Source: Candidatus Saccharimonadota bacterium
GTDB taxonomy: Bacteria; Patescibacteriota; Saccharimonadia; Saccharimonadales; Saccharimonadaceae
Assembly: GCA_905371715.1 (NCBI GenBank)
Contig: CAJPLV010000005.1
Span: forward strand, 1-53,732
Length of the DNA stretch: 53,732 nt
Direction of reading: 5' to 3'
Shown here piece by piece: positions 5,534-53,283 of the stretch. The position numbers and the translations under genes were made by a program. The stretch's first letter is position 1; each line of letters begins with the position of its first letter. The notes under the pieces were generated by a model. The model saw only the letters and a program-made list of their open reading frames with translations. It was not told where the DNA came from and made no database searches.

Positions 5534-5539
5534 TACAAT
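5534..5539 (+). promoter_or_regulatory. Extended -10 promoter, leaderless start
   Basis: TACAAT preceded by TGG (extended -10). It ends 6 nt before the ATG at 5546, so transcription should begin at the start codon. There is no Shine-Dalgarno sequence in between. Confidence 0.65.
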
Positions 5540-5545
5540 GAAGAT

Positions 5546-6424
5546 ATGCAAGACCAAGAGCCGCAAACCCAAGATTGGCAGCAACCAGCGCAATCAACTG
5601 CGCACGGAGCGTACCAGCCAATTCAAGATACGACACAGGCAACAAATACGGTGCCATCGCCTCAAACCTTGTCGTCATTTGCTGGACCTGCGGCGGTGTC
5701 CGAGGTGTCTCCAGCGCCAATTCCATCCGCCGAGTCTCCTGCAGCGCCGGAGGCACTGGCGACAACGCCTGTATCTCTACCAGAAACGCAAACAGCTTCA
5801 CAGCCCACTACTCCCGAAGTATCCGCGGCTTCTCCGTCTTCTCCTGAATTTTCCGATCCTACCGCTACGGCAGTAGCGCAGCAAGCTACCGAATCACCCG
5901 CTCAAGAATCACCAGATCAGCCCGACACTACGGATGACATGACGGCTGACGGTCTTCCTGACGACGAGATTCTCATCCGTTGGCAGGCGCTTGAGTATAT
6001 GCAGCACCAGCACGAGCCGATTTGGTATATCGGATTTGGCGCTACCGTACTTATACTCATTGCGGTGGCGATTTTTGTGTTCAAATCGCCAACATTTGCA
6101 GTACTCGTGCCGGTAATGGCGGTCGCATTAGCGTTATACGTTCGCCGCCCGCCCGCGACGATTGACTACACGGTGAGCCGCAAAGGAATTCACGTCAACG
6201 ATCGATTATATACGTTTGATCAATTCAAGTCGTTCAGTGTTGTGAGGCAGGAAACGACGAATCATGTTGTCCTTATACCGCGTAAACGCTTTCAGCTAGG
6301 ACAAAATATCTATTTCCCAACTGAAATCGGTGAAAAACTTGTCGATATGTTGGCGGCACGTTTGCCAATGAAGGAGACAAGCCCGGACATTATTGATAAA
6401 CTACTCGCAAAACTCCGTTTGTAA
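5546..6424 (+). CDS. Hypothetical membrane protein with disordered N-terminus and PH-like C-terminal domain
   Basis: 292 residues. The first ~145 are Gln/Pro/Ala/Thr/Ser-rich and probably disordered. Two adjacent hydrophobic segments (about 165-185 and 190-207) form a hairpin in the membrane. The last ~80 residues (IDYTVSRKGIHVNDRLYTFD and following) resemble the small beta-rich, PH-like domain seen after membrane hairpins in many CPR hypotheticals; this last point is from pattern, not a search. The start at 5546 is set by the -10 box 6 nt upstream. It sits alone between two tRNA genes. Function unknown. Confidence 0.82.
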   Translation: MQDQEPQTQDWQQPAQSTAHGAYQPIQDTTQATNTVPSPQTLSSFAGPAAVSEVSPAPIPSAESPAAPEALATTPVSLPETQTASQPTTPEVSAASPSSPEFSDPTATAVAQQATESPAQESPDQPDTTDDMTADGLPDDEILIRWQALEYMQHQHEPIWYIGFGATVLILIAVAIFVFKSPTFAVLVPVMAVALALYVRRPPATIDYTVSRKGIHVNDRLYTFDQFKSFSVVRQETTNHVVLIPRKRFQLGQNIYFPTEIGEKLVDMLAARLPMKETSPDIIDKLLAKLRL

Positions 6425-6437
6425 TGCCGAGCTCCTC

Positions 6438-6466
6438 TTGCACACCTGCCAGTATCGTGCTATGAT
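6438..6466 (+). promoter_or_regulatory. Sigma-70 promoter of tRNA-Arg
   Basis: TTGCAC (6438-6443), 17-bp spacer, TATGAT (6461-6466). The tRNA begins 12 nt after the -10 box. Confidence 0.85.
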
Positions 6467-6478
6467 TTAAGATGGTAT

Positions 6479-6555
6479 GCACCCGTAGCTCAGCTGGATA
6501 GAGCGTTTGCTTGCGGAGCAAGAGGTCGTACGTTCGAATCGTATCGGGTGTACCA
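6479..6555 (+). tRNA. tRNA-Arg (anticodon GCG)
   Basis: 77-nt class I tRNA with acceptor GCACCCG/CGGGTGT, D-arm with GCTC/GAGC, anticodon stem TTTGC/GCAAG, a 7-nt loop TTGCGGA giving anticodon GCG, T-stem GTACG/CGTAT, discriminator A and encoded CCA. It would read CGC/CGU directly with G34. Most bacteria use an ACG anticodon edited to inosine for this box, so a G34 version is unusual. The arginine identity features C35 and A/G73 are present. Confidence 0.93.
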
Positions 6556-6622
6556 CGATTTCGTCATACAAACCCTGGACCTGAGAGTCTGTTTTCTGTG
6601 GTTTGCAGAGTAACATTAGATT

Positions 6623-6649
6623 CCCATCCGTCATGGATGGGAGTTTTTT
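6623..6649 (+). terminator. Rho-independent terminator
   Basis: Stem CCCATCC/GGATGGG (6623-6629 with 6635-6641), 5-nt loop, then AG and six T. It ends the tRNA-Arg transcript; nothing else is visible in 6556-6622. Confidence 0.85.
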
Positions 6650-6712
6650 GAGCACGCTACGTAAATTAACCTACTCCTTGCTCCGCCCTCCTACCTATGA
6701 TTAAATATAACC

Positions 6713-7198
6713 ATGACGAACGAAGAACTCGCTGCGCAAGTAAAAGATCTAACTGTTCAGGTTCAAGACCTCGCAAGTGCCGTTAAAACACTAGCTGAAA
6801 CAATGAATGCTAAGTTTGAACAGATCGACAAGAGGTTTGAACAAATTGATGAACGTTTTAATCAGATCGACCAACGCTTCGAATCAATTGACACCCAGCT
6901 CTCCGCCATCCGCAAAGACCACAAGAACCTCACGGATACTGTGAAGGACATGGAGTTGCGCATCGATGAACGCTTTGCAAAGGTTGATGAGCGATTCAGC
7001 GGATTGGAAGCAGGACAATCAGCCATCCGTGCAGACATCGCTGGTCTTCGTCATGATTTGTTCATTGAAGAAGGCTCGCGCGAGACGGCAGATGCAGCTC
7101 TTTTGGACGACCAAGATGAGAAGTACAAATCTCTCGATAAGCGCCTGCGCCTGGTTGAAGCAAAGTTTCCGGATCTAGCACAAGGATCAGCGGCATAA
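6713..7198 (+). CDS. Coiled-coil protein with heptad repeats
   Basis: 161 residues, acidic, no membrane segment. Residues ~35-105 consist of 7-residue repeats of the form F-E/D-x-I-D-x-R (FEQIDKRFEQIDERFNQID, FAKVDERFSGLEAG), a continuous coiled coil. The second half (LRHDLFIEEGSRETADAALL, KSLDKRLRLVEAKF) stays helical. Similar repeat proteins are common in bacteria and phages as oligomerising rods, but no specific function can be given. A TATGAT at 6696-6701 lies 11 nt before the ATG with no ribosome-binding site between, suggesting a very short leader. Confidence 0.82.
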   Translation: MTNEELAAQVKDLTVQVQDLASAVKTLAETMNAKFEQIDKRFEQIDERFNQIDQRFESIDTQLSAIRKDHKNLTDTVKDMELRIDERFAKVDERFSGLEAGQSAIRADIAGLRHDLFIEEGSRETADAALLDDQDEKYKSLDKRLRLVEAKFPDLAQGSAA

Positions 7199-7328
7199 GC
7201 CTGCCGTAGCCTTGCTCTACGCGAATAAATCTACAGTAACACCCCGCGCACCATCTCTGAATCTGAACACTACGAAGACTACCCAGCTGCTAGAGAGCGA
7301 TTGCGAAAGACGCGTCGCCGCCGAAAAC

Positions 7329-8738
7329 CTACGACTGCAAATACTCTCCAATCCGCTCTTTCGCCCGCTCTACCGACGCGCTGTCAGGAATCATCACGTA
7401 CAGCGGCATCGCACCCATGCTATACGTTTGGCGGGTTGCGCCTGCACCGTCGACGCTCATTGACTCGACTTTCCAGCCCTTAAAATCATTGAGCTGCATT
7501 TTTATCAACGATGCAATCGTCTCCTGACTCATGTTTGTTTGCAACGAACTTTGCAACGTCGACAAAATTGCGTTATACCGCGTCAGGTTGCGCGGCTCGC
7601 TCATCTTCGCGACGATCGCCTCAATCACCTTCTGCTGGTTGCGCCCCCGCTGCCGATCACCGTCGCCAAAGCTATAACGCTCGCGTGCAAACTCAAGCGT
7701 TCGCTTGCTATCAAGCGTATTCTTACCCACTTGGAATGAATGAAACGCATAATCAGAATCAACCGTAATGTCGCCCACCACATCAACCATCTTCACGAGC
7801 GACGTAAAGTTCAACCGCACATAGTACGGGATCTCAACACCATACAAATCACCAAGCGTTTGCCGCGACATGTCAATGCCGTAAATGCCCGCATGCGTCA
7901 ACTTATCCGGCATACTCGCCACACCGTGCAGCTGCACATAATAATCCCGCGGCGTGTTTACGAGCAGCATCGTCCGCTTCGCCGGATTCATTACCGCTAG
8001 CATATTCACATCGCTCCGCGACACCTCGCCCACATCACCATACGTATCGATGCCGCTGATGTACAGCACAAACGGCTTCGTTACGTCAGTTTTCGGCGCA
8101 GCTCGGCGCTCATCGTCCCGCACCTTGTAAGTCGCAAGCGTCGCCACGCTGTCATAAAATTCACGGTAATTTTCTTGCAATACGCCCATATTCGCCGTTC
8201 GGATTGATGCCAATTCAACCGCGCCAGTGTTAAGCTGCTCCGTCAGCGCCATCAAACTGTCGTAGCTGCTCTGCGCCGCCGGCGTTACGTCAGCAAGTGC
8301 TTTCGCCGCCTTATCATGCAGCGTATCCGCCTCAATCATACCGACCGACCGAGCAGAATCAAGCGCTATGCTGCGGTCTTTCTTCGCGATAACCGTGTAT
8401 TCTACATAATTAACCTGCGGCGGCTGCACTGCACTCAAAAACGAGTTCACCGAGTGCCCGCTTTTGTACACGGCAACATTAGCAGCGATCATCACCATGC
8501 CAATCGCCATGAATAGCACGCCGCGCCATACCGCTTTCGACCGGCGCATCAACTGCCACAGCACAACGCCCGCCACCGCTGCATACAACGGCGCAATAAT
8601 ATATAAATACTTGTCGGGGATCACGCCCATCGCAAATAGGTTAATTCCTGCAGGGATCGCCGTCACAATGATACCCGCGCCAACCAACCGCTGCAGCCAC
8701 GCAAACAGCGACGTTTTCTGTTCTTTACTCACTTTCAC
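7329..8738 (-). CDS. LytR-CpsA-Psr (LCP) family protein
   Basis: 469 residues with three N-terminal membrane helices (about 17-39, 44-64, 75-92), then an extracellular LCP domain with the family signatures MLLVNTPRDYYVQL, DKLTHAGIYG, VDVVGDITVD and the Arg-rich RERYSFGDGDRQRGRNQQKV. LCP proteins transfer undecaprenyl-linked polymers (teichoic acids, capsule, arabinogalactan) to peptidoglycan. The exopolysaccharide operon 1.3 kb away is a plausible source of substrate (inference). GTG start at 8736-8738, only 2 bp after the VanZ-like gene, so translation is probably coupled. Confidence 0.93.
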   Translation of the reverse strand: MKVSKEQKTSLFAWLQRLVGAGIIVTAIPAGINLFAMGVIPDKYLYIIAPLYAAVAGVVLWQLMRRSKAVWRGVLFMAIGMVMIAANVAVYKSGHSVNSFLSAVQPPQVNYVEYTVIAKKDRSIALDSARSVGMIEADTLHDKAAKALADVTPAAQSSYDSLMALTEQLNTGAVELASIRTANMGVLQENYREFYDSVATLATYKVRDDERRAAPKTDVTKPFVLYISGIDTYGDVGEVSRSDVNMLAVMNPAKRTMLLVNTPRDYYVQLHGVASMPDKLTHAGIYGIDMSRQTLGDLYGVEIPYYVRLNFTSLVKMVDVVGDITVDSDYAFHSFQVGKNTLDSKRTLEFARERYSFGDGDRQRGRNQQKVIEAIVAKMSEPRNLTRYNAILSTLQSSLQTNMSQETIASLIKMQLNDFKGWKVESMSVDGAGATRQTYSMGAMPLYVMIPDSASVERAKERIGEYLQS

Positions 8739-8740
8739 TG

Positions 8741-9205
8741 CTAAATTTTATCACATTTTTGATTATTATGCAACTTACAGATCAATTTATATCCGCCGGC
8801 GATAACCACTGCGCCAGCACAGGCCGCCGCCGTATCAAGCAGCACGTCGCTCACCTGCCCGCTTCGCCCGCCGACAAGCAGCTGATGGGTTTCATCTGTC
8901 GCTGCATACGCGCACGCAACGCCAACCGCCCATAATACAGCACTACGCCAGCGTACATCATACGTGCGCACCAGCAAAGTCAGCAATATTCCCAACACGA
9001 AATACAAAAACACATGCGCTGCCTTGCGCACTACCGTCTCGGAAAACGAGATATTCGTAATATATTGCACGCTTCGCACCACGCGCTCGCTCTGTCCGCT
9101 CGACACTTCATGCCCAGCACTCGAAAACCAAAAAATTAGCGCCATCCATAGAACGATAGCGATAAACAGAATCAATCTTAACCTCTTACGAAGAGTTAGC
9201 TTCAT
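8741..9205 (-). CDS. VanZ-like family membrane protein
   Basis: 154 residues with about four membrane segments and the VanZ-family pattern FWFSSAG early, the HVFLYFVLG helix, and the ATDETHQL motif followed by GRSGQVSDVLLDTAAACAG. VanZ relatives affect glycopeptide susceptibility, but the biochemical activity of the family is not firmly known. First gene of a two-gene operon with the LCP gene. A TATAAT at 9215-9220 ends 9 nt before the ATG, leaving a leader of only a few bases. Confidence 0.9.
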   Translation of the reverse strand: MKLTLRKRLRLILFIAIVLWMALIFWFSSAGHEVSSGQSERVVRSVQYITNISFSETVVRKAAHVFLYFVLGILLTLLVRTYDVRWRSAVLWAVGVACAYAATDETHQLLVGGRSGQVSDVLLDTAAACAGAVVIAGGYKLICKLHNNQKCDKI

Positions 9206-9280
9206 TGGTACTTTATTATAACATAAAATGAACCCCTGTTTCCAAGAGCTTACCTAGGGGATGTAGTCAACTACTTGCTA

Positions 9281-9310
9281 TTGACTGCACCCCTAACAAC
9301 GAGCTATAAT
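9281..9310 (+). promoter_or_regulatory. Strong sigma-70 promoter, leaderless
   Basis: TTGACT (9281-9286), 18-bp spacer, TATAAT (9305-9310); ATG follows 7 nt later. A near-palindrome GTAGTCAACTAC at 9264-9275 sits just upstream of the -35 and could be an operator (speculative). Confidence 0.8.
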
Positions 9311-9317
9311 ATAGCCG

Positions 9318-9563
9318 ATGGAAGAGCATTACTTAATGCAACAGAATAGTGTCTCTAAATCACTTGCTTACGTCAATAGTATTATTTTAGGTGAATCTTA
9401 CAATAGAGTAAGGTCAATTGACATACTAAACGTCAGCGACAGTAAAGCTATCTCAGGCGATTACGCTGCTGTCTATAAAAATTATTCAATATCCCTCGCT
9501 AAAATGGGCAAAAAAGAGAATGTCTCGAAGAAAAACAACAAGAGAAAAAACCAAACTGAATAA
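9318..9563 (+). CDS. Small hypothetical protein, overlaps next gene
   Basis: 81 residues with no recognised family. It has a short amphipathic N-terminal part (VSKSLAYVNSIILGESYNRV) and a very basic C-terminal tail (KKNNKRKNQTE). The first ATG (9318) lies 7 nt after a consensus -10 box, giving a leaderless message; a second in-frame ATG at 9336 is an alternative. Its last 44 nt overlap the next gene in another frame, so the two are surely co-transcribed. The region is more AT-rich than its neighbours. Confidence 0.6.
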   Translation: MEEHYLMQQNSVSKSLAYVNSIILGESYNRVRSIDILNVSDSKAISGDYAAVYKNYSISLAKMGKKENVSKKNNKRKNQTE

Positions 9564-9996
9564 TCGACCCGTAGAGGTTGATTCCGTAGAAGGTGAAGTG
9601 GTCGGTAATTTAGCCCAAAAAGACGACAGGAGAGTTGTTAAGGGCACTTTTTTCTCTGGTCCCCTGCCTCCCCCTGATGAGTTTAATAAGTATCCAGCAG
9701 AAGTTCAAAAAGCGATAGTGGAAGACGCCCGAACTCAGATGGAGCACCGCCATAATATTGAGAACAAGGTGGTTGACTCTGACTCTTTCGTTGTAAGAGT
9801 AGGATCCATTGGCACGTTGATTATGTATTTATTATGTATTGCTAGTGCAGTATACCTACTCTCGACAAACAAAACGCTTGAGGGTTTTGTCATAGGAGCT
9901 GCCGTTGGTCTAGCAAAGTCCCTAGTATTATTTAGAAGTATCAATAATAAGTCTAAAGAAACGCCTGCGAGTAGCAATAACAAAGGTGATAAATAA
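9520..9996 (+). CDS. DUF2335-like predicted membrane protein
   Basis: 158 residues. The segment FSGPLPPPDEFNKYPAEV followed by a His/Arg-containing helix (DARTQMEHRHNIEN) matches what I recall of the DUF2335 family: GPLPPP signature, then a helix, then two C-terminal membrane spans (here about 96-115 and 122-140). The N-terminus is basic. The family has no established function. It starts inside the preceding small gene with a weak AAGAG site. An N-terminal basic helix plus two membrane helices would suit a membrane-anchored effector, but this is speculation. Confidence 0.75.
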   Translation: MSRRKTTREKTKLNNRPVEVDSVEGEVVGNLAQKDDRRVVKGTFFSGPLPPPDEFNKYPAEVQKAIVEDARTQMEHRHNIENKVVDSDSFVVRVGSIGTLIMYLLCIASAVYLLSTNKTLEGFVIGAAVGLAKSLVLFRSINNKSKETPASSNNKGDK

Positions 9997-10059
9997 ATCA
10001 TCAACCGCGTCCAACCATAGTATAATCACGTTGATCACGGGCTAGAAATAAATTAACAG

Positions 10060-11487: not shown

Positions 11488-11490
11488 AAC

Positions 11491-14658: not shown

Positions 14659-14669
14659 AAATCGTTCCC

Positions 14670-18050: not shown

Positions 18051-18056
18051 AGTATA
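18051..18056 (-). promoter_or_regulatory. -10 box of truB, leaderless
   Basis: TATACT on the minus strand, 6 nt before the truB ATG; no ribosome-binding site between. Confidence 0.6.
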
Positions 18057-21276: not shown

Positions 21277-22215
21277 TCGCGTGGAAACGGTAAGCACGAA
21301 TCGATCAATAATATCCCACGGCGCTGCCGCTAATGTTTTTGATTGGTAATCTAATTCTGCCGCCAACTGCGTCAACTCGCGTACGCTTGCCGCGCTAAAG
21401 TACGGCGCAAGCGCCTGAAGTTTCTTGGCGACAAACGGGTGGATCGCCAGATCGTGAGCGATCTGCGCGGACGAAGCGCCCTCTGCCATCATCACTGCCG
21501 CAAGCTGCGCCCACTGTACCCATAATAACGCCATCACTTTGTACGGATCGTCAGTTGCGCGCAATTCGCTAAGTGCTTTTTGCACCGCCCGCACATCGCG
21601 CCGCGCGGCTAATTCCAATATGTCAAACACCGAGAATTCCCGCGCCGGCGGCAGTACTGCCGCAATAGCTTCATCTGTCACCGTATCAACGTTTACAAGC
21701 GCTTTCACGGCGTGCGCCAGCTGTAATTGGTCGACTTCTGCTACCCGCGATGCTTCATTCGATATGAGCGCCCGTGAGACCATATTAGCCGCTTGCGCCC
21801 GCGATATCCCCACGCCCTGCGCACGCGCTAAATCCCGCAACCACGTCTCCGCTGCTGAGCGCGTACGCTCCGTCAACGGCTCGGCGGCGATGACTTCACC
21901 TGCGCGCACAAGTGTTTTGTATGCCTTTGTGCGTTTATCAGGCTTTGCTTCAACCAGCACAAGCGTCGTATCGGCGCTAACGTCGCGCGCCCACTCGCCA
22001 AGCTTCGCCCACAACTCCTTATGCTCCGATAGCTGTCTTAGCACAACGAGCCGCGTCTCCCGGAATAAACTCACTCCGCGCACAATATCCGCCAAACTAT
22101 TCATGTCAAGCCGATCCGCGTCAATCGTCTCTGCTCGCACGCCAAGCCGTTTCGTAAGCGCCGCGATCTCTTGCCGCACGCGGTATTCATTTGTACCTAG
22201 TATCAGATAAATCAC
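21253..22215 (-). CDS. holA: DNA polymerase III delta subunit
   Basis: 320 residues with HolA features: MIYLILGTNEYRVRQEI start, FRETRLVVLR strand, EAKPDKRTKAYK, FSVFDILELAARRDVRAVQKAL and the C-terminal clamp-loader collar helices (PYKVMALLWVQWAQL, ELDYQSKT). Opens the sliding clamp as part of the clamp loader. GTG start. It lies 108 bp after mutM on the same strand; 22216-22323 holds nothing I recognise. Confidence 0.9.
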   Translation of the reverse strand: MIYLILGTNEYRVRQEIAALTKRLGVRAETIDADRLDMNSLADIVRGVSLFRETRLVVLRQLSEHKELWAKLGEWARDVSADTTLVLVEAKPDKRTKAYKTLVRAGEVIAAEPLTERTRSAAETWLRDLARAQGVGISRAQAANMVSRALISNEASRVAEVDQLQLAHAVKALVNVDTVTDEAIAAVLPPAREFSVFDILELAARRDVRAVQKALSELRATDDPYKVMALLWVQWAQLAAVMMAEGASSAQIAHDLAIHPFVAKKLQALAPYFSAASVRELTQLAAELDYQSKTLAAAPWDIIDRFVLTVSTRNSPQESE

Positions 22216-27742: not shown

Positions 27743-27749
27743 AACTCTT

Positions 27750-27766
27750 ATTATATCTGATATGAT
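27750..27766. promoter_or_regulatory. Divergent leaderless promoters of polA and the kinase-like gene
   Basis: Minus-strand TATAAT at 27750-27755 ends 7 nt before the polA ATG. Plus-strand TATGAT at 27761-27766, preceded by TGA (extended -10), ends 6 nt before the ATG at 27773. Only 30 bp separate the two start codons, so the promoters must be used in competition or alternation. Confidence 0.7.
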
Positions 27767-27772
27767 AAAGTT

Positions 27773-28345
27773 ATGAGTGAAATTCCCGCAAACATCAAAA
27801 TTATCGCGTTCGTTGGGCTAACGGGCAGCGGCAAGTCCGAAGCCGCAAGCTACGTTATCAACAAAGGTTACCCGCGCGTGTACTTCGGCGGCGTTATCTT
27901 AAGCGCTATGAAAGAAGCCGGTATCGACTGGAGCGAAGCTAACGAGCGCGCTTTTCGCGAGGACATTCGCGCGCGCGAAGGTAAAGACTTCGTCGTGAAG
28001 CGCATTATTCGCGAAATTCACAATCTCATTAACGCTGGACAGCGGCACATCGTCGCTGATGGATTATATACGTGGACGGAGTATAAAGCCTTAAAACGCG
28101 AATTTTCCAGCGCCCTCACCGTTGTGGCGATCGTTGCTCCCAAACGCTTGCGCCACCACCGCCTAACAGCGCGCCCCGTTCGCCCGCTTACTGCTGAAGA
28201 AGCAAGCTCACGCGACTGGGCGGAGATTGAGAATCTCGAAAAGGGCGGCCCGATTGCTATCGCCGATTACTATGTCCATAATGACGGCACGATTGATAAT
28301 TTGCACCAACAGCTTGACCAGATTTGCACCATTATCCATTTTTAG
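27773..28345 (+). CDS. P-loop kinase-like protein (dephospho-CoA kinase / UPF0200-like)
   Basis: 190 residues. Walker A GLTGSGKS near the N-terminus and an overall layout like dephospho-CoA kinase relatives (FGGVILSAMKEAGIDW, RHIVADGLYTWTEYKAL, VVAIVAPKRLRHHRL, ADYYVHNDGTIDNLHQQ). The ending YYVHNDG-x-IDNL is the common pattern of dephospho-CoA kinases and UPF0200 proteins. True CoaE would phosphorylate dephospho-CoA in the last step of CoA synthesis; the divergence leaves the substrate open. Divergent from polA, leaderless start. Confidence 0.82.
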   Translation: MSEIPANIKIIAFVGLTGSGKSEAASYVINKGYPRVYFGGVILSAMKEAGIDWSEANERAFREDIRAREGKDFVVKRIIREIHNLINAGQRHIVADGLYTWTEYKALKREFSSALTVVAIVAPKRLRHHRLTARPVRPLTAEEASSRDWAEIENLEKGGPIAIADYYVHNDGTIDNLHQQLDQICTIIHF

Positions 28346-28373: not shown

Positions 28374-28394
28374 ACGACGTAAAGGAGAATTAGT

Positions 28395-29925: not shown

Positions 29926-31654
29926 GTGCTCTCTCCTTGATTATATTGTTGAGCGCAGTTCGCAAACGCTCCGCCGCCGGTTCATCGCCGGCTGCTTCGG
30001 CATCTCGCAACTGCGCGAGTAAGCTGTCCTGTGTTTGTTTCGCGTGTTCATATTCTATCTGCTGCAGCAATTGCCTCATCGCAAGCCGGCGATCCTCACC
30101 GCTCCAGGCTGCATACCGCTCTTCGGCGCGTAATAGTACTATTTTTACATAGATGTCATATTCTTGCAACTCCTTCGGCACTGCCTGAATAATCTCGTCA
30201 TGCGACTGCAAGTATAGAGCAAGCACACGCCGAGACGCCTCATGCCAATGTTCGGCATTAATGCGGCACAGCATGTCGCGGCAACGTAGATCGCAGCACG
30301 CCAATGCAAGCGCATTATCCTCTTTAATATATGCGTCATCGCCCACCGCTTGCGTCGACTGCGCAACTGGCTTAAGTGGCTTCTCGCGCGTCTTGCTGCC
30401 TGCGAATTTTGCGCGCACCGTCTCAACGCTCGTTTGCGCCAGTTCTGCCGTCCGGGTTAGATAGTATTCTTGCTCCACCGGGTCGTTCAAGAGGCGAATC
30501 ACGCCAAGTGCTGCCGTGGTAAAATTACGTTTGCCCGCCGCCGTGTCCAAATCCAACCGCGCTGCATACTGTCGCAGTATCCAGTCGACCGCTGGTTCTG
30601 CTGTGTCGATCGCCCGCTGCCACAAGCTTACGCCTGTCTGAATTAGCTCGTCAGGGTCTTTATACTGCTCCGGCAAACTAATAATCGTCAGCTCGACGCC
30701 CGCCTGCGACGCCAGCGTAATCGCACGCTCCGTCGCTGCTACACCCGCTTTGTCGCCATCGTACGCCAACCGCACGTCGCCCGTTAGCCGCTTCACGGCG
30801 CGAATGTGCTGCTCGGTCATTGCTGTACCAGCGGTTGCGACGACATTTTTAACACCTACTTGATGGCTACTCACGACATCAAGATTCCCCTCAACCATCA
30901 CGATGAATCCCGCTTGGCGAATCGCCTGTTTTGCCTGGCTGAGCGCAAAAATATGCCGTCCCTTATCATAAAGCAACGTCTGCGGCGTGTTCAAATATTT
31001 TGGCGCGTTCGGTACATCACCGATAATTCGCCCGGTAAAGCCAATCACCTGACCGCTTGAGTCCATTAGCGGTACCATCATACGTCCGCGGAACATATCG
31101 CCGCCGAAGCGATTGAGCAGACCGGCATCATTAAGCTCGCGCCGCGAAAACCCTTTTTTATCCAGAGCACGTACGAGCGCTTCGCCGCTATCGGGCGCAT
31201 AACCAATTTGGAAATCTGCCACAACCTGTTTAGATAGGCTGCGCACGCGAAATACATATTCAATCGCGTGTTGATTATGTAGCAAGCACTGCTGATAAAA
31301 TCGTGCCGCTAATTGATTTGCTATAAGCAAGCGTTTCTTACGCGCTGCGCGTTCTTTAGCGTGCGCTGGTTCGTAGTCGCTCAGCTCAACGCCCGCTTTT
31401 TTCGCTAAAAACTCCAGAGCTTGACGAAAGTCCATACCCTCAGCTTCCATCACAAACGCAAACACATCGCCGCCCTTGTTGCTGCTAAAATCATGCCAAA
31501 TATTTTTGTCGGGACTAACGAAAAAACTTGGCGTCTTTTCGCTTGTAAATGGACTTAGTCCCTTGAAGCTGCGCCCCGCCCGCTTTAGCTGTACATACTC
31601 GCCGATTACATCTTCAATATTCAGCCGCGCGCGCACCTCCTCTTTGGCATCCAT
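29912..31654 (-). CDS. dnaG: DNA primase lacking the zinc-binding residues
   Basis: 580 residues. The N-terminal domain keeps the CHC2-type sequence around [20 protein letters not shown] and [17 protein letters not shown], but the four zinc ligands are replaced by Ser34, Thr37, Asp55 and Ser58. The TOPRIM core is intact ([42 protein letters not shown]). The C-terminal helicase-binding region is short. Makes RNA primers for replication. Start at 31654 sits 7 nt after an extended -10 box (leaderless). First gene of the dnaG-rpoD operon. Confidence 0.96.
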
Positions 31655-31661: not shown

Positions 31662-31667
31662 ATTATA
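31662..31667 (-). promoter_or_regulatory. Extended -10 promoter of dnaG-rpoD, leaderless
   Basis: TATAAT preceded by TGA, 7 nt before the dnaG ATG on the minus strand. Confidence 0.7.
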
Positions 31668-34472: not shown

Positions 34473-34478
34473 ATTATA
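34473..34478 (-). promoter_or_regulatory. Extended -10 promoter of orn-corA operon, leaderless
   Basis: TATAAT preceded by TGA on the minus strand, ending 6 nt before the orn ATG. Confidence 0.7.
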
Positions 34479-36075: not shown

Positions 36076-36105
36076 TTGCCTTATCTTGCATGACGCTTTT
36101 ATAAT
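36076..36105 (+). promoter_or_regulatory. Promoter of the MacB-like operon
   Basis: TTGCCT (36076-36081), 18-bp spacer, TATAAT (36100-36105). The 7 nt between the -10 box and the ATG at 36113 read AAAGGAG, so a Shine-Dalgarno-like sequence lies upstream of the expected transcription start. Confidence 0.8.
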
Positions 36106-39478: not shown

Positions 39479-39484
39479 TATGAT
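39479..39484 (+). promoter_or_regulatory. -10 box, leaderless start at 39492
   Basis: TATGAT ending 7 nt before ATG 39492. Confidence 0.5.
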
Positions 39485-40102: not shown

Positions 40103-40108
40103 TATAAT
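40103..40108 (+). promoter_or_regulatory. Extended -10 promoter of the first FemX-like gene, leaderless
   Basis: TATAAT preceded by TGC, ending 6 nt before ATG 40115. Confidence 0.68.
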
Positions 40109-42448: not shown

Positions 42449-42454
42449 ATCGTA
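42449..42454 (-). promoter_or_regulatory. -10 box of the MurE-like gene, leaderless
   Basis: TACGAT preceded by TGG on the minus strand, 7 nt before the ATG. Confidence 0.5.
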
Positions 42455-42503: not shown

Positions 42504-42509
42504 TATAAT
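42504..42509 (+). promoter_or_regulatory. Extended -10 promoter of tsaD-tsaC, leaderless
   Basis: TATAAT preceded by TGG, ending 7 nt before ATG 42517. Confidence 0.7.
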
Positions 42510-42516
42510 AAAGTTG

Positions 42517-45173: not shown

Positions 45174-45179
45174 ACACTC

Positions 45180-45185
45180 AGTATA
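45180..45185 (-). promoter_or_regulatory. -10 box of the second FemX-like gene, leaderless
   Basis: TATACT on the minus strand, 6 nt before the ATG at 45173. Confidence 0.6.
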
Positions 45186-45198
45186 CACGGAGTTATGG

Positions 45199-45342
45199 TA
45201 TAATGAAAAGGAATACAAACACGTGAGAAAATAAAAGGTGCAAGGATAACAGAGGTGAGGGCGCTTATGCTGAGCGATTCCTGGGTTATCTTTTTGATTT
45301 TTAGTTTTCACGTGAATAACCTAATGAATAAGAAGAGCCGAT
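45199..45342 (+). promoter_or_regulatory. valS promoter and structured leader, possible attenuator
   Basis: Extended -10 TGGTATAAT (box 45199-45204), then ~130 nt of leader. A GATAAC/GTTATC stem (45245-45250 with 45285-45290) enclosing a smaller CGCT/AGCG stem is followed directly by TTTTTG, a terminator-like arrangement. An outer pairing of CACGTGA (45220-45226) with TCACGTG (45308-45314) would enclose it. A short ORF with a GAGG site (GTG 45255 or ATG 45267), rich in hydrophobic codons, reads through the hairpin and into valS in another frame. No T-box sequence was found. Confidence 0.5.
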
Positions 45343-47898: not shown

Positions 47899-48242
47899 TC
47901 AAGGATTGGTAAATTAGCGTTATCAAACGCGTGGCGTCCACCTTCTTCAAGAACGGCAAGAATACGCTTGTGGTGGTGGCGGCGATCCGGCGCCATGCTC
48001 GGCGACTGGTACGTGAAGCTATGCGACAACATTGAATTGCTCGCATCGTGGTCGGAATGCGTATGCGGCGTGCGCGCCTCGCTAATCGCTTTCACATCCA
48101 GCGAAGTCAGCTTGCTTATCTTTGCCTGCTTCGCCGTTTCAATCACGTGCTCAACATGGCTATCGTGCACTGCAACGCCGCTAGTGATACACAGGCTCAG
48201 TGTGGCGATGAATATTCGGGCTAGGTAGTCAAAATATGTCAT
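47895..48242 (-). CDS. Small hypothetical His-rich exported protein
   Basis: 115 residues. N-terminal hydrophobic stretch (YLARIFIATLSLCITSGVAV) looks like a signal or anchor, followed by a His-rich region (HDSHVEH, HTHSDHD, RRHHHKR) that could bind metal. No family recognised. Overlaps the valS stop by 4 bp in convergent orientation. A TTGACT on the minus strand near 48302-48307 may be part of its promoter. Coding is likely but not certain. Confidence 0.5.
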   Translation of the reverse strand: MTYFDYLARIFIATLSLCITSGVAVHDSHVEHVIETAKQAKISKLTSLDVKAISEARTPHTHSDHDASNSMLSHSFTYQSPSMAPDRRHHHKRILAVLEEGGRHAFDNANLPILD

Positions 48243-48364
48243 TGTCTATTGTTTGTGTTTAGTAGTATCGTGCTACTTAATTTAGCATAAACTTTATTAA
48301 AAGTCAATAATATAGCCCATATAAGTTTTATTACTAGAAGCAGCGTTGGTTTGCTTGACCTAAA

Positions 48365-48388
48365 TTTACCAGGTAAAATAGCGCTATT
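48365..48388. promoter_or_regulatory. Two adjacent palindromes, operator-like
   Basis: TTTACCAGGTAAA (48365-48377) directly abuts AATAGCGCTATT (48377-48388). A further TTTTACC half-site lies at 48440-48446, next to the -10 box of the ABC operon. This suggests binding sites for a dimeric regulator of that operon; no regulator gene is in the window. Confidence 0.4.
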
Positions 48389-48434
48389 AAATAACACAAA
48401 ATAGTAAAGAAAAGTGCGCTTTAGTTGAACATGA

Positions 48435-48440
48435 TATAAT
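48435..48440 (+). promoter_or_regulatory. Extended -10 promoter of the second ABC operon
   Basis: TATAAT preceded by TGA; 14 nt to the ATG at 48455, so the leader would be only about 7 nt with no ribosome-binding site. Confidence 0.65.
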
Positions 48441-48454
48441 TTTACCTAAGTATT

Positions 48455-49165
48455 ATGCAGTCAAATAAAACAGACACTACTTCGTGTTGCGTTATCAAAG
48501 TTCGTGGACTTCATAAAAACTTTGGCCCTAGAGAGGTTCTTCGGGGAATCAATCTTGATGTGCGCGCAGGGGATATTCTATCTGTAATGGGGCCAAGTGG
48601 CTCGGGAAAATCAACATTGCTGTATTGTATGGCGGGAATCCTTGCAGCTGACAAAGGCGAAGTATTTTTCAACGGCAAGAATCTTGCGCATTATAGCGCA
48701 AACAGTCTTATTGCATTACGCAAGACAAGTTTTGGTTTTATTTTTCAATTCGGCGAACTAATTTCCGAACTTCCGGTCCGCGACAATATCGCCCTACCGC
48801 TGTTGCTACGAGGCGTAAGAAAAAAGCAAGCGTATAAGACCGCGGACGAATGGGCTTCTCTCGTCGGTGTTCAGAACGTCATTTCTGCTTTGCCGCACAC
48901 GCTCTCTGGCGGAGAGATGCAGCGAACGGCAATTGCGCGAGCTATGGCGATAAATCCTGAAGTAATTTTCGCAGACGAACCAACAGGATCTTTGGATTCA
49001 GTAAATGCGAAAAAGGTTATGGAGTTATTCGTCTGGTTAGCAAGCAAATATCGTAAGACTGTTATTATTGTCACGCACTCAGAAGAAGTAGCAGTCTATG
49101 CAGATAGGCACGTACTATTAAAAGACGGCTTGATAGAATCGGGTGTAACACGTATTTCACCATGA
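48455..49165 (+). CDS. ABC transporter ATP-binding protein (MacB/LolD type)
   Basis: 236 residues: Walker A GPSGSGKST, Q-loop IFQFGELI, signature LSGGEMQRTAIARAM, Walker B VIFADEPTGSLD, H-loop VTHSEE. Of the LolD/MacB class. Compared with the 36113 ATPase it has no C-terminal tail. ATGA overlap with the permease gene. The operon is more AT-rich and uses more ATA/AGA-type codons than most neighbours, suggesting a separate history. Substrate unknown. Confidence 0.93.
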   Translation: MQSNKTDTTSCCVIKVRGLHKNFGPREVLRGINLDVRAGDILSVMGPSGSGKSTLLYCMAGILAADKGEVFFNGKNLAHYSANSLIALRKTSFGFIFQFGELISELPVRDNIALPLLLRGVRKKQAYKTADEWASLVGVQNVISALPHTLSGGEMQRTAIARAMAINPEVIFADEPTGSLDSVNAKKVMELFVWLASKYRKTVIIVTHSEEVAVYADRHVLLKDGLIESGVTRISP

Positions 49166-51465
49166 ACAATTTTTTAGTTTTATTAAGGCTATCAAATAGA
49201 CAATCAAAATTTCGTGTTATCACCACGATACTATCAGTTATTCTAGCAACTCTCATTCTTACGACTGTAGTCTCCCTAGGGCAAGGATGGCTATTGCGCC
49301 AGGAAAAGGACGATTTTCTCTCGGCGCTGTTATCCACCGAATCGAAACCAACAACAGAACAAGCAAAATCACATGACTTGACATACATCTCTTCATATGA
49401 CACACGGTTTCGTACACTTTCAATCAAAGAAATTGGCGCACGAACAGCTCACCAGACCAATAAATTACCAGTAGGATTTAACGAAATGCCTGCGGATAAC
49501 GAGATATGGGTGACTCCAGCGCTTAAGAGGCTCATTGATGAACATCAGCTCCTAAAAGAGCGATATCAGGAACTCACTATTAAAAGTAAATTTCCAGAGT
49601 CGCTTGCGCCATCGCCAGATTCTCTTATGCTACTATTTCGCATCTCTGATGCTGCGCTGAAAAATCCGCAAGCACGATTAGGTGCTATTAGCGCAAGCGA
49701 CATTGAAAAAATTCGAGCCAACCAAAAAATGAAAAACAATTCACAAAACCAGCTATTCTATACGATTATCATAGCAATCGGAGTAATACTCATTACACCT
49801 GTTCTCGTCCTCGTTACCGAAGTAGCTCGCATCAATATAACCCAGCGCGAAAGGAGATATGCAACACTCAGCCTCGTGGGTGCAACGACGCATCAAATAG
49901 GATTAATAATCACTTTAGAAGCTTTGCCGCTGGGTCTAGTCGGTACTGCGCTAGGACTGCTGTTGTTTACGCAATTTGGGATACCTATATTATCTCAGAT
50001 ATCTTTGAATGGAAACGCGTTCTGGATGAGCGATCTGAATCTCCCCCAGCCTATCTACAGCATTATCGGAGTTTTGATAGTAGCATGCATTCTCTTATCA
50101 AATCTCCAAGTTGTGCGGCGAATAAAATTGTCGCCGCTCATAGTGTCGCGAAGTAATGGCGTGAAAAAACATCCTTCAATGCTCTCAGCGATTCCGCTCA
50201 TAGCAGGAATTGGTGGCCTCTACCTTCTGTCTGGATACGGCAAATCCTGGTATGCAGACAATACAGCAACTGGGAGTATCGTTATCGCTTCGCTTTTACT
50301 GCTAATTATCATAGGCATAGTAATGTGCGGTCCTTATCTAACCTACTTATTATCTTTTGCTATGGAAAAAATTTCACAGCGAGCAAGCGGCATACTGACC
50401 ACATATAGGCTACGACTGACATCAAGAAATACATTTCGTAGCATCAGCGGAATTGTTATTGCTCTTTTCGTCGGATCATTGCTTGTGACATTTCTCGCAA
50501 TAGTGCAACATTCAAGCGAGAAACGAAGTGAAACAGTACCTATTGTCAGCTTGTTGCCTATTGATAAATTACAACGTCCCTTGCAGATAAAAATTACCGA
50601 GTCTTCAAAAGAGATTGACGAAGCACTTATAAGCAAATTAGAAAATAATACCGCACTCGCAGATTTAGCGACTCAAACGTATATTCAAAAGTATTTTCAA
50701 GCAAAAGGAGATGAAGAGAACACTCTGCGGGGAAACTACTACGATTCGTGCCAGCAATTACAGCGACGCACTCAGATGCTGTGTCCCGATAGCTTTTCCG
50801 GAAAACCGATCATTACCGTACAACAAATCACTGTAGATAGTTCAGGTGCGATGCGCGCGCAAACGCGAATCGTTGATGCTAACACCGTTAACGGAGAAAT
50901 TTCCACGAGTAGCTATGTGATAGTTGCAAAGAATCAAGCCGTATATGCCCAGATGATTGAGTTAGTCGAGAATATAGCAAGCTCTTATCGACGCAAAACT
51001 GGGGCTGTCGTTACTGTTGGGTATAGTAGTCTCGACACAATGAATTCAGCTGCACAAATCAAGAACCTAAGTAAACTGATTGTAACCATACTCGCCGTTG
51101 TCATCGCCACTGGCGGACTAAGTATATTTGTCAGCATCGTAGGCAACATTTATGAACGCAAAAGAACCTTTATTCAGCTTCGTATCCTCGGCGCAAACTT
51201 ATCAAATTTAATCTGTTCGTTAGCGGCAGAAATCGCCATGCCGCTCATAATGTTATCGGTTGTAGCGGTTTCACTTGGTATTTTCTCATGTTATTTCCTG
51301 TTATCGACGATAGACGCATTCCACAACAACCAGCTCACTTTTACATTTCCCGGCACCCACTTCTGGGTTGCGTTATTTGCCGCCAATCTCTTGTGTGTCA
51401 GTTTATCACTTATCACGATACCTATTTTAGCTCGGATAACGAAAGAAGGCGTGCGCGTTGAGTAG
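49162..51465 (+). CDS. Large FtsX-type ABC permease
   Basis: 767 residues with two FtsX-like modules: one N-terminal helix (VITTILSVILATLILTTVVS), an extracellular domain, three helices around NITQRERRYATLSLVGATTH, two linking helices (~335-400), another module beginning SRNTFRSISGIVIALFVGSL, a second extracellular domain with two cysteines, and a last three-helix set (IYERKRTFIQLRILGANLSN). This 10-helix layout is found in actinobacterial and Firmicute peptide-resistance and bacteriocin-related exporters (BceB-like architecture). With the adjacent secreted protein gene a role in peptide export or self-protection is possible, but unproven. Confidence 0.88.
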   Translation: MNNFLVLLRLSNRQSKFRVITTILSVILATLILTTVVSLGQGWLLRQEKDDFLSALLSTESKPTTEQAKSHDLTYISSYDTRFRTLSIKEIGARTAHQTNKLPVGFNEMPADNEIWVTPALKRLIDEHQLLKERYQELTIKSKFPESLAPSPDSLMLLFRISDAALKNPQARLGAISASDIEKIRANQKMKNNSQNQLFYTIIIAIGVILITPVLVLVTEVARINITQRERRYATLSLVGATTHQIGLIITLEALPLGLVGTALGLLLFTQFGIPILSQISLNGNAFWMSDLNLPQPIYSIIGVLIVACILLSNLQVVRRIKLSPLIVSRSNGVKKHPSMLSAIPLIAGIGGLYLLSGYGKSWYADNTATGSIVIASLLLLIIIGIVMCGPYLTYLLSFAMEKISQRASGILTTYRLRLTSRNTFRSISGIVIALFVGSLLVTFLAIVQHSSEKRSETVPIVSLLPIDKLQRPLQIKITESSKEIDEALISKLENNTALADLATQTYIQKYFQAKGDEENTLRGNYYDSCQQLQRRTQMLCPDSFSGKPIITVQQITVDSSGAMRAQTRIVDANTVNGEISTSSYVIVAKNQAVYAQMIELVENIASSYRRKTGAVVTVGYSSLDTMNSAAQIKNLSKLIVTILAVVIATGGLSIFVSIVGNIYERKRTFIQLRILGANLSNLICSLAAEIAMPLIMLSVVAVSLGIFSCYFLLSTIDAFHNNQLTFTFPGTHFWVALFAANLLCVSLSLITIPILARITKEGVRVE

Positions 51466-51716
51466 CTAGCAGCTTCCACAATACCCTATGCAATCAAGGA
51501 GAAGCTTAAATTAGCATTTTATGCCCGCATACTTTAGTAGATAATTTTAGTCAATTCTAGGATCTATAACATATGAAAAGCTTGAAAATATTCTTTAAGC
51601 TTCGTATCTAAAGATGTTGCGTTGAGCAAAACGTAACACCTGAGACTTACATCTCAGACGTGTTATTGCTCCGCAAAGAGCTTTGACACGGCATATTCTA
51701 CACAGAAAGGTCAATT
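51466..51716 (+). promoter_or_regulatory. Intergenic region with a long hairpin leader before the secreted protein gene
   Basis: No gene in 51466-51716. A nested hairpin spans 51624-51671: GAGCAA/TTGCTC outside, GTAACAC/GTGTTAT in the middle and CTGAGA/TCTCAG inside. It is followed by CAAAG/CTTTG around 51675-51685. A small AAGCTT-based repeat lies at 51577-51602. A clear promoter was not found; TATAAC at 51567-51572 and TATCTA near 51604 are weak candidates. The sequence CCGCAAAGAG occurs here and also in the 35501-35760 leader. Confidence 0.5.
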
Positions 51717-52061
51717 GTGCCTACGAAGAAGATCAAGCGTCTTATCACTCTGGTCCTGACTATTGGGGTCAGCTCTATCGGCATGATCCCAATCATGTCC
51801 GGGGTTGCTCATGCAGCTCCGTCCCACTGCATGTCGGGCTGGGCGAGCGATGGTGTCGCTCGTACAGAATGCAGCTACGGGACTGGTCAATTCCGTGCTG
51901 GAATCCCTTGCAAATCGATCCTTACTCTTGGCTACGGTTTCACACAGTACAGTCCGTGGGTTAACCAAGGTCAGGTCGCTGTGGTTCGTTGCCCTGCCGG
52001 AGCGTGGCTCTGGCACGACATTCCCGGCGGTCCTCAGATCATCGTGGAGACACGCAACTAG
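51717..52061 (+). CDS. Small secreted four-cysteine protein
   Basis: 114 residues. Classical Sec signal peptide: basic PTKKIKR, hydrophobic LITLVLTIGVSSIGMIPIM, cleavage after AHA (about residue 33). The mature ~80 residues contain four cysteines (SHCMSG, TECSYG, IPCKS, VRCPA), likely two disulfides, and many Trp/Tyr/Gly residues. The style and codon use (GTC, ATC, CGT, GGT; GC-richer than flanks) resemble small secreted proteins of actinobacteria, the usual hosts of Saccharibacteria. No family recognised. GTG start with an AAAGG site. Bounded by a leader hairpin and a 14-bp terminator hairpin. Confidence 0.78.
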   Translation: MPTKKIKRLITLVLTIGVSSIGMIPIMSGVAHAAPSHCMSGWASDGVARTECSYGTGQFRAGIPCKSILTLGYGFTQYSPWVNQGQVAVVRCPAGAWLWHDIPGGPQIIVETRN

Positions 52062-52112
52062 TCTACAGGACTTATTGGCTTCTTTGTTGACTTGTCGCAG
52101 AGTGTCCGCGTC

Positions 52113-52147
52113 AAAGTGCCCCATCAGTTTTTTTGATGGGGCACTTT
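52113..52147 (+). terminator. 14-bp hairpin after the secreted protein gene
   Basis: Perfect inverted repeat 52113-52126 with 52134-52147 around a T-rich 7-nt loop. The 3' T run is only three nt, so it may be a terminator or an RNA-stabilising 3' end. Confidence 0.75.
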
Positions 52148-52424
52148 AAATTAGCAATAAACTCTTGTTAAATACAATATACAGTGGTACGAGCGACTTA
52201 AGTATCCCTTTGTATATTAACAACTACTCGGCAAAAGCCCACAGATATAGTCGCACGCGCTGGTGGTCTGCTATACACCTGGTCATGCGTTAAAACTGAC
52301 TACTTTTCTTATAATATATGCGGAAACTTTTAGCGGTTGCTTATGAGATCATGACGGAGATACTGAGCGAGCTGGAAATCTCTGCTAATTTAGCGAATGA
52401 GAGTAATTATAAAAATCTAGAGAA
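52148..52424. other. Intergenic stretch, no confident gene
   Basis: AT-rich. An interrupted inverted repeat is present (TTGTTA...ATATACA near 52167-52185 and TGTATATTAACAA near 52211-52223). A TATAAT lies at 52310-52315. A 39-codon ORF (52318-52437) starts just after it and overlaps the end of rlmH on the other strand; the 2-nt spacing to its ATG makes it doubtful, although an internal ATG exists. Confidence 0.35.
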
Positions 52425-52880
52425 CTACTCGTGGTGATATTTTCCGCCTCGGGCGATTTCTTGTGCGCGATATAATTGCTCAATAAGGATAAGCCGCACC
52501 AACTGGTGAGGAAATACGAGCGGACTGAGCGACCATACTAGATTAGCACGAGCACGCAATGCATCGGTAACGCCATATGCGCCGCCGATAACAAAGGTGG
52601 GTGTGCGGTTGCTTGTGAATGCCCGGTCAAGAGATCGCGACAGGACGGGGGAGTTAAGCAGTTTCCCGCGTTCATCAAGGACGATAACGAAATCATCTGA
52701 TCGGCAACGAGACAATATGCGTTCAGATTCATCGCGGCGAGCCTTATTGTCATCAAGCGGACTGTGCGACAATAATTCCCACGTGATATTCCACGGACGT
52801 TGCAAGCGTTTTTGATAACGCTCTATGCCAGCAGCAACCCAGGGCTCGTGTTTTTTACCGATAGCAATGATTTTAAGCAT
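52425..52880 (-). CDS. rlmH: 23S rRNA (pseudouridine1915-N3)-methyltransferase
   Basis: 151 residues, SPOUT/trefoil-knot methyltransferase: MLKIIAIGKKHEPWVAAGI start, FVIVLDERGKLLNSPVLSRS, FVIGGAYGV (SAM site), WSLSPLVFPHQLVRLILIEQ and the C-terminal GKYHHE. Methylates pseudouridine 1915 in helix 69 of 23S rRNA. Start at 52880 overlaps the HIT gene stop by 8 bp; the longer reading to 52925 adds residues absent from the family. Confidence 0.95.
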   Translation of the reverse strand: MLKIIAIGKKHEPWVAAGIERYQKRLQRPWNITWELLSHSPLDDNKARRDESERILSRCRSDDFVIVLDERGKLLNSPVLSRSLDRAFTSNRTPTFVIGGAYGVTDALRARANLVWSLSPLVFPHQLVRLILIEQLYRAQEIARGGKYHHE

Positions 52881-53271
52881 TAGTTCGCAGTTTTTCTGCC
52901 ATAGCAGCAAGCGCGTCATGGTCAACTGGCGATTCTGTATCCTGTGGCTGCTTTAATTCCGCTTCGCTGCCGATCGGAATCAGATGGATATGCGCATGCG
53001 GCACACCATATCCCATCACGACCGAGGCAACGCGCGGGCGAATCTTGAGGCGCTCAATGTGTTTCGCAAGACGCTTTGCAACGTTCCAGAGGTGAGCGTA
53101 CGTGTCGTCGTCTAAGTCCCACAAGCTATCAACTTGTTTTTTTGGAATAACGAGCGTATGTCCCTCAACTTGCGGATGAATGTCAAGAAATGCAATCGTT
53201 TTGTCATCTTCGTAGATCTTGTGGCAAGGCAGTTCGCCTTTAATAATTTTAGTAAAAATTGAATCTTCCAT
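52873..53271 (-). CDS. HIT family protein
   Basis: 132 residues: DSIFTKIIKGELPCHKIYED, FLDIHPQVEGHTLVIPKK and the histidine triad GVPHAHIHLIP. Hint-like nucleotide hydrolase or transferase acting on AMP-linked substrates. The region between (MGYGVPHAH) follows the Hint pattern. In an operon with rlmH (8-bp overlap). The ATG lies 6 nt after a TATAAT box; the reading to 53370 would run into the tRNA gene region. Confidence 0.94.
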   Translation of the reverse strand: MEDSIFTKIIKGELPCHKIYEDDKTIAFLDIHPQVEGHTLVIPKKQVDSLWDLDDDTYAHLWNVAKRLAKHIERLKIRPRVASVVMGYGVPHAHIHLIPIGSEAELKQPQDTESPVDHDALAAMAEKLRTNA

Positions 53272-53277
53272 ACCTAT

Positions 53278-53283
53278 ATTATA
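53278..53283 (-). promoter_or_regulatory. -10 box of HIT-rlmH operon, leaderless
   Basis: TATAAT on the minus strand ending 6 nt before the HIT ATG. It is 14 bp from the tRNA-Ser(CGA) -10 box on the other strand. Confidence 0.68.

Follow-up and report, generated by a model that had tools for sequence, protein, structure and literature searches.

The window analysed here, a 53,732-nucleotide stretch of contig CAJPLV010000005.1 from a Candidatus Saccharimonadota bacterium, carries 14 genes whose start codons were described in an earlier note as standing 6 or 7 nucleotides (nt) downstream of a TATAAT-like -10 hexamer. Very probably, from what the sequences tell, these hexamers are -10 boxes of the housekeeping sigma factor set in such a way that the mRNAs would begin with the AUG itself or at most a few nt ahead of it, giving leaderless or near-leaderless messages whose initiation would be independent of the Shine–Dalgarno (SD) sequence. 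In the mechanism that we propose, the housekeeping-sigma -10 box would place RNA polymerase so that transcription sets in at the A of the AUG or a few nt earlier, the resulting mRNAs would be leaderless or nearly so (0–5 nt), and the ribosome would need no SD pairing to read them, recognising instead the AUG at their 5' end. In the nearest genome compared, hereafter G001, this mode would serve an estimated 23% of the genes, about 31% of the heads of transcription units (unit heads) and 39% of the divergent genes, while SD initiation on an intact anti-SD would be kept by most ribosomal, RNA polymerase and elongation-factor genes and by the genes inside operons. The evidence consists of the position of the box, the promoter anatomy, the restriction to unit heads, the near exclusion of SD sequences, the coding signal from the ATG and the conservation across the class, all of which are observed; the actual 5' ends of the mRNAs and the manner of ribosome binding would follow from them as just described.

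The genome of the window is that of a tiny, host-dependent member of the Saccharibacteria (TM7): among the 120 matches listed for its PolA, the best are 97–98% identical, and those with an organism name are 94–95% identical and belong to Candidatus Saccharimonas sp. or TM7 phylum sp. oral taxon 349. All genome-wide counts are those of G001 and not of the window's own assembly; G001 is a single contig of 864,133 bases with a GC content of 0.49, and it has counterparts for 18 of the 19 window genes compared, at 89–100% protein identity. The counts on spacing, matrix, anatomy, unit heads, SD exclusion and gene function cover its first 800 kilobases (kb) with 719 genes, and those on the -1 base and the SD head/internal ratios cover all 864 kb. 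By gap we mean the number of nt between the end of the -10 hexamer and the start codon, about four candidate starts being allowed per gene.

Spacing, anatomy and conservation of the boxes

A sharp genome-wide spacing peak, to which the earlier note had looked as a check of its reading, is found in G001 at gaps 6–8. Exact TATAAT stands before candidate ATG starts in 25, 28 and 19 of the 719 genes at gaps 6, 7 and 8, then in 5, 8 and 6 genes at gaps 9–11 and in about 2 per gap from 12 to 60; with one mismatch allowed, the three peak values rise to 85, 70 and 41 genes versus about 14, and a count made without any genes, of TATAAT followed by ATG over the 800 kb, gives 35, 41 and 30 versus about 10 at other gaps. 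Starts with GTG or TTG in G001 show neither a spacing peak nor a leaderless excess. A matrix of nine positions (TGn plus the hexamer), scored at gaps 6–8 and compared with 14 decoy spacings, selects 192 of the 719 genes, against a decoy mean of 27.2 (3.8%) and a decoy maximum of 38, which leaves an excess of about 23%, and it agrees with the exact-hexamer counts. We also counted seven common hexamers in 80 Saccharibacteria loci fetched by a genome scan with PolA, most of them titled Saccharibacteria, TM7 or Saccharimonadia and the rest bacterium or Patescibacteria; in their 1224 genes, polA excluded, these hexamers occur 0 times at gap 5, 141, 69, 54 and 40 times at gaps 6–9, and about 9 times per gap at gaps 15–60. 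In the E. coli K-12 control (211 kb), the seven hexamers stand at gaps 6–8 in 0 of 196 genes, and the SD peak is clear.

Aligned at their starts, the G001 genes display TGnTATAAT plus a TTG that moves with the box so that the spacing between both stays constant. The TG of the extended -10 is present in 87 of the 192 boxed genes, and the TTG lies at a 17-base-pair (bp) spacer in 28 and at 18 bp in 10 of them, with about 3 at other spacers. A pyrimidine at -1, which is a known preference around bacterial transcription start sites, occurs in 143 of 166 genes at gaps 6–8 versus 190 of 331 at gaps 15–60 (p = 3e-11). By the TTG at its 17-bp spacer, the TGn and this pyrimidine, the boxes read as genuine promoters. 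They are, moreover, concentrated at unit heads in G001: the box is carried by 86 of 196 divergent genes (decoys 9.2), by 81 of 272 co-directional genes with at least 40 nt upstream (decoys 11.8), by 21 of 84 with 10–39 nt upstream, and by only 4 of 165 operon-internal genes, that is, overlapping or less than 10 nt apart (decoys 3.4). After subtraction of the decoys, the box is found on 39% of the divergent genes and on 31% of both unit-head classes combined; in the 80 loci, one of the seven hexamers stands at gaps 6–8 in 183 of 771 unit heads.

The existence of two initiation modes, also put forward in the earlier note, is borne out by the near exclusion of box and SD sequence in G001: an SD of at least 4 nt, sought at a spacing of 3–11 nt, accompanies the box-linked start in 2 of 192 genes, versus 199 of 527 at the best-scoring start of the other genes, and counted at any candidate start the figures are 18 of 192 and 292 of 527. 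The coding score climbs at the box-linked ATG in the same way as at SD starts, a coding signal from the ATG onwards with which translation of a 5'-AUG would agree.

The arrangement is conserved across the class, as seen most clearly in polA, for which 79 of the 80 loci were testable and the best-scoring box was picked irrespective of start codons. In 68 of the 79 loci, that box is followed at gap 6–8 by an in-frame ATG or GTG, when 28 other gaps taken as control total 35, i.e., about 4 per three gaps. Relative to the point where the protein match begins, these polA starts fall at 14 different offsets, and thus the box tracks the start and not a fixed place in the gene. The correlation of 0.999 between box and start was left unused, as it follows from keeping only the gap 6–8 matches. 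For tsaD and dnaG, the best 30 loci of 57 and 59 matching genomes, respectively, among 61 searched, were taken, and in 22 of 30 loci for each gene a box precedes an in-frame start at gap 6–8.

The boxes of the window

All 14 starts named in the earlier note have their -10-like hexamer where it had been placed, 6 or 7 nt upstream, and the extended TGn that it ascribed to many of them is recognised by eye in 7 of 14. Thirteen of the boxes match TATAAT within one mismatch, that of the MurE-like gene (42441) having two, and both box and spacing are kept in the G001 homologue for 13 of the 14 window open reading frames (ORFs). We called 46 genes in the window, among which the decoy rate of G001 would predict fewer than two boxed by chance. 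Pfam recognises truB, dnaG, TsaD, HIT, a Mur ligase and an RNase T-type exonuclease (orn-like) in the window. The boxes are as follows:

5534..5539, plus strand: -10 box TACAAT, gap 6 to ATG 5546; 292 amino acids (aa), no Pfam match; identical in G001
9305..9310, plus strand: -10 box TATAAT, gap 7 to ATG 9318 of an 81-aa ORF
18051..18056, minus strand: -10 box TATACT, gap 6 to truB ATG 18044; TruB_N
27750..27755, minus strand: -10 box TATAAT, gap 7 to polA ATG 27742; layout kept through most of the class
27761..27766, plus strand: -10 box TATGAT, gap 6 to ATG 27773 (AAA_18), divergent from polA
31662..31667, minus strand: -10 box TATAAT with TGn, gap 7 to dnaG ATG 31654
34473..34478, minus strand: -10 box TATAAT with TGn, gap 6 to ATG 34466 (RNase_T, orn-like)
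36100..36105, plus strand: -10 box TATAAT, gap 7 to ATG 36113 (ABC ATPase)
39479..39484, plus strand: -10 box TATGAT, gap 7 to ATG 39492; weak matrix score of 4.1
40103..40108, plus strand: -10 box TATAAT with TGn, gap 6 to ATG 40115 (FemAB-like)
42449..42454, minus strand: -10 box TACGAT with TGn, gap 7 to ATG 42441 (Mur ligase)
42504..42509, plus strand: -10 box TATAAT with TGn, gap 7 to tsaD ATG 42517
45180..45185, minus strand: -10 box TATACT, gap 6 to ATG 45173 (FemAB-like)
53278..53283, minus strand: -10 box TATAAT, gap 6 to HIT ATG 53271

The SD leaders that had been claimed for pnp, Nudix and 28395 are likewise present, and with one further gene they provide the contrast within the same window:

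3793..3797, minus strand: SD AGGAG, 8 nt before pnp ATG 3784
3986..3990, plus strand: SD AGGAG, 5 nt before Nudix ATG 3996
28383..28387, plus strand: SD AGGAG, 7 nt before ATG 28395
29933..29937, minus strand: SD AGGAG, 7 nt before GTG 29925, of the gene downstream of dnaG

Some of these places deserve a separate comment. The polA gene and the AAA-domain gene at 27773 diverge, and the 30 bp between their ATGs (27743–27772), which differ from G001 in one base, hold both -10 boxes, so that the only place for a -35 element of either promoter is at or within the start of the other gene. At orn, the stretch from promoter to ATG is almost unchanged in G001, and the sequence upstream of the promoter has diverged. 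The segment 36100–36115, TATAATAAAGGAGATG, contains the -10 box plus an SD-like AAGGAG ahead of ATG 36113, the AAGGAG being at spacing 0. The 81-aa ORF 9318–9563 has a good box, yet no homologue of it was found in G001, and it is possibly a non-gene or else lineage-specific. A gene called with a GTG start at 22215 on the minus strand has TATACT exactly 6 nt upstream; this box may be due to chance, because leaderless GTG starts show no genome-wide excess, or it may be a rare case.

Competing explanations

Several points weigh against the leaderless reading of these boxes. Our gene caller was home-made, and the matrix was trained on the gap 6–8 set and therefore favours real over decoy spacings, a bias that the exact-hexamer counts do not have. 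A 50-kb plasmid stretch of Deinococcus, intended as a positive control, had to be dropped since its 24 genes were too few. A box also precedes 14 of the 224 operon-internal genes in the 80 loci, and the conservation test failed in 11 of 79 polA, 8 of 30 tsaD and 8 of 30 dnaG loci, several of them with boxes at gaps 9–11. Within 39 codons downstream, 10 of 192 boxed G001 genes, versus 68 of 527 others, have another in-frame start preceded by an SD of 4 nt. In the scan of the phylum detailed below, only 10 of the 15 genomes of G001's class pass p < 0.001 with exact TATAAT, and gap-6 enrichment is missing in 36 of 192 genomes, all with enough sites. Finally, the pyrimidine at -1 is found in 40 of 69 and 28 of 54 genes at gaps 7 and 8 of the 80 loci, near the 56% background, and for tsaD, 11 of 22 loci carry a purine in that position (polA, 11 of 68; dnaG, 2 of 22).

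The last of these observations bear on the alternative that survives best, according to which the promoter is real, but most mRNAs start 1–5 nt before the AUG and not exactly on it; we consider this possible, although on balance unlikely. The unconstrained -1 base at gaps 7–8 and the purines of tsaD, hinting at mRNAs with 1-nt leaders, speak for it together with the 40 genes at gap 9 in the 80 loci, whereas gap 6 forms the largest class, has a pyrimidine at -1 in 130 of its 141 genes and borders on a hard wall at gap 5, such as would be expected if a shorter gap removed the AUG from the mRNA. The claim of the earlier note that these mRNAs begin at the AUG can thus be kept in one part and should be softened in another: a transcription start on the A of the AUG fits the gap-6 genes, and part of the gap 7–11 genes probably have a leader of 1–5 nt, given that their -1 base is not always a pyrimidine. 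In both cases, a leader of 0–5 nt leaves no room for an SD sequence, so that the mode of initiation would be much the same.

Far less credible is the idea that the TATAAT-like box is not a promoter but an AU-rich translation enhancer of the S1-binding type within an ordinary leader. An S1-like protein and IF3 are indeed present in G001, and AT-rich upstream biases of some phyla are interpreted in this way in passages of PMC5397173, but the TGn and the TTG at the 17-bp spacer are features for the polymerase, the pyrimidine at -1 also argues for transcription, and the box is missing from the operon-internal genes of G001 (4 of 165), which would equally need a translation element. Slightly weaker still, and very improbable, is the proposal that the start codons were misplaced and that translation really begins further downstream, after an SD leader. 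Start prediction is error-prone, with about four candidate starts per gene allowed by our caller, and the 10 boxed genes with a downstream SD of 4 nt would agree with such errors; nevertheless, the rise of the coding score at the box-linked ATG is like that at SD starts, a downstream in-frame start within 39 codons with an SD of at least 5 nt exists in only 1 of 192 boxed versus 22 of 527 other G001 genes, and the polA box keeps its gap of 6–8 in 68 of 79 loci despite the 14 start offsets. A narrower version of this downstream test (0 of 192 boxed and 0 of 162 SD genes) was replaced, as the zero of the SD genes was partly a product of its construction. Chance or an AT-rich composition before genes, with which the 36 genomes lacking gap-6 enrichment would be compatible, retains a negligible probability against the gap-specific peak, the wall at gap 5, the missing GTG/TTG peak, the 27.2 decoys versus 192 genes, the 0 of E. 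coli and the 64 of 192 significant genomes with 0 in reverse, and in G001 it is refuted by the spacing controls.

The two modes within the genome, across the phylum and in other bacteria

Taking leaderless or near-leaderless starts set by -10 boxes as the best explanation, the question of which genes use them received an answer different from that of the earlier note, which had considered the essential information genes to be mostly leaderless. In G001, only 1 of 35 ribosomal and RNA polymerase genes is leaderless and 31 of the 35 have an SD of at least 4 nt at some candidate start, as do the EF-Tu, EF-G, EF-Ts, IF2 and pnp genes and the three ATP synthase genes found. More broadly, 65 of 74 E. 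coli housekeeping queries found a G001 gene, of which 6 are leaderless (rpsO, truB, proS, rnhB, obgE and murB); among unit heads, 6 of 32 housekeeping genes versus 161 of 436 others are leaderless (Fisher p = 0.054), a direction opposite to that claim. The two modes are therefore systematic, with the leaderless starts serving scattered unit heads and not the core expression machinery. A codon-usage proxy of expression gave no clear difference between leaderless genes and SD unit heads (0.663 vs. 0.672, p = 0.063), the other unit heads being at 0.636 (p = 0.005) and the ribosomal reference genes at 0.731.

As for the machinery, the anti-SD is intact in the 16S rRNA of G001, and IF3, an S1-like protein and YchF are present; among the components looked at in G001 (anti-SD, IF3, S1-like protein, YchF and bS21), no special initiation factor was singled out. 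Loss of bS21 as a cause is unsupported, as a match exists in 8 of 10 genomes tested, 5 of them over the cut-off and none in G001 or G049.

The scan of the phylum comprised 192 genomes in 97 families of the tool's grouping and used exact TATAAT and AGGAG only, which gives low power in many genomes. TATAAT at gaps 6–8 exceeds that at gaps 18–20 (p < 0.001) in 64 of the 192 genomes, the reverse occurring in 0, and 45 of the 97 families contain at least one genome significant in the gap 6–8 or the gap 6 test. The SD measure compared AGGAG at 5–8 with 18–21, and with such exact motifs of low power a missing signal is weak evidence of absence; on this basis, both signals are seen in 23 genomes, the leaderless signal with no significant SD excess in 41, the SD signal only in 35 and neither in 93. 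The 41 genomes span 26 families, and in 19 leaderless-positive genomes the SD ratio does not exceed 1.15. Over the 192 genomes, there is no correlation between leaderless and SD strength (Spearman 0.11, p = 0.14).

Two Microgenomates-like genomes chosen for their high leaderless ratio were followed further, namely G166 (L137, L146-L165), of which several organism-named FtsH matches are Candidatus Beckwithbacteria (best 76%), and G155 (L135-L136, L166-L185), whose PNPase is identical to that of a Candidatus Roizmanbacteria record. Their peaks at gaps 6, 7 and 8 amount to 39, 25 and 18 versus 1.8 in G166 and to 32, 13 and 19 versus 2.8 in G155. Both show little SD signal, at unit heads and inside operons alike: the SD ratios of head and internal genes are 1.35 and 1.24 in G166 and 0.81 and 2.42 in G155 (partial genomes of 420 and 301 kb with home-made calls, and 45 internal genes in G155), for comparison with 2.99 and 6.30 in G001 and 4.86 and 6.23 in E. 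coli; the 3' ends of both 16S rRNAs keep CCTCC. The pyrimidine at -1 is not enriched in either of them (57 of 82 vs. 54 of 84 in G166; 48 of 64 vs. 85 of 131 in G155), and hence the exact transcription start is less clear there. Tentatively, and with somewhat less than even confidence, we suggest that leaderless initiation may be a main and possibly ancestral mode of the candidate phyla radiation (CPR), several lineages including relatives of Roizmanbacteria and Beckwithbacteria having nearly abandoned the SD sequence while keeping the anti-SD, with leaderless unit heads and internal genes relying on translational coupling. How general such mRNAs are in CPR bacteria, which the earlier note could not say, is answered computationally for Saccharibacteria and only in part for the rest of the phylum.

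Four other genomes were set aside in this comparison. G049 and G057 had been considered as non-leaderless controls, but their gene calls are sparse (71 genes in 139 kb and 109 in 150 kb, respectively) and an absent peak in them proves little; the stretches of G065 and G108 were too short (31 and 19 genes). The very sparse calls of G049 (L186-L195) were made under the standard code, its GC content is 0.32, and an alternative genetic code is possible.

Among known systems, the closest are the TA-led genes described in sections of Zheng et al. 2011 (PMC3160421), in which a TAtaaT-like signal has its first T about 12 bp ahead of the start, equivalent to gap 6, beside SD-led genes, and which make up 19.2% of the genes in Actinobacteria and 39.4% in Deinococcus-Thermus. 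Our case resembles them in the gap 6 signal next to SD-led genes and in a comparable share of about 23% in G001, and it differs in that the Saccharibacteria signal is the full TGnTATAAT and not the TAnnnT of the high-GC TA-led groups, and in that GTG starts have no peak in G001. The terms "TM7" and "candidate division" are absent from the text of that paper. As cited within PMC9581028, GeneMarkS-2 (Lomsadze et al. 2018) predicts leaderless transcription in 21.6% of bacterial species, and in the portions of PMC9581028 on this subject no statement was seen on CPR within that leaderless set. As in the mycobacteria treated in PMC4633059, leaderless transcripts would be common in a bacterium, although the account given there rests on RNA-seq and ribosome profiling and that for Saccharibacteria is computational only.

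Among the matches listed from the open-access literature (subscription papers and preprints not included), no report of leaderless initiation in CPR was seen, and no open-access paper pairing leaderless with Parcubacteria or with Microgenomates was found. Among the papers listed that do pair the word with a CPR name, YchF and leaderless mRNA are mentioned in passing (PMC12641178), the word "leaderless" stands in the reference list (PMC6851277, PMC7441243 and PMC10434106), or the subject is leaderless peptides (PMC13361665).

In summary, leaderless initiation itself was already known, and the Saccharibacteria are an added instance of it, with no CPR report seen in the open-access literature. 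Much of bacterial diversity is accounted for by CPR bacteria, whose ribosomes are reduced, and to our knowledge their translation initiation has been little studied. Given that the Saccharibacteria include cultivated members, the sequence evidence that about one in four of their genes would be expressed from a leaderless or near-leaderless mRNA makes the question testable in co-culture. In practice, gene callers centred on the SD sequence may misplace starts in Saccharibacteria genomes, and the rule linking -10 box and AUG would fix both the start codon and the transcription start at once. Why the anti-SD is conserved is a question on which lineages combining a leaderless signal and little SD with an intact anti-SD would have a bearing. 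The related genomes suggest that the leaderless habit is common in a large and little-studied branch of the bacteria.

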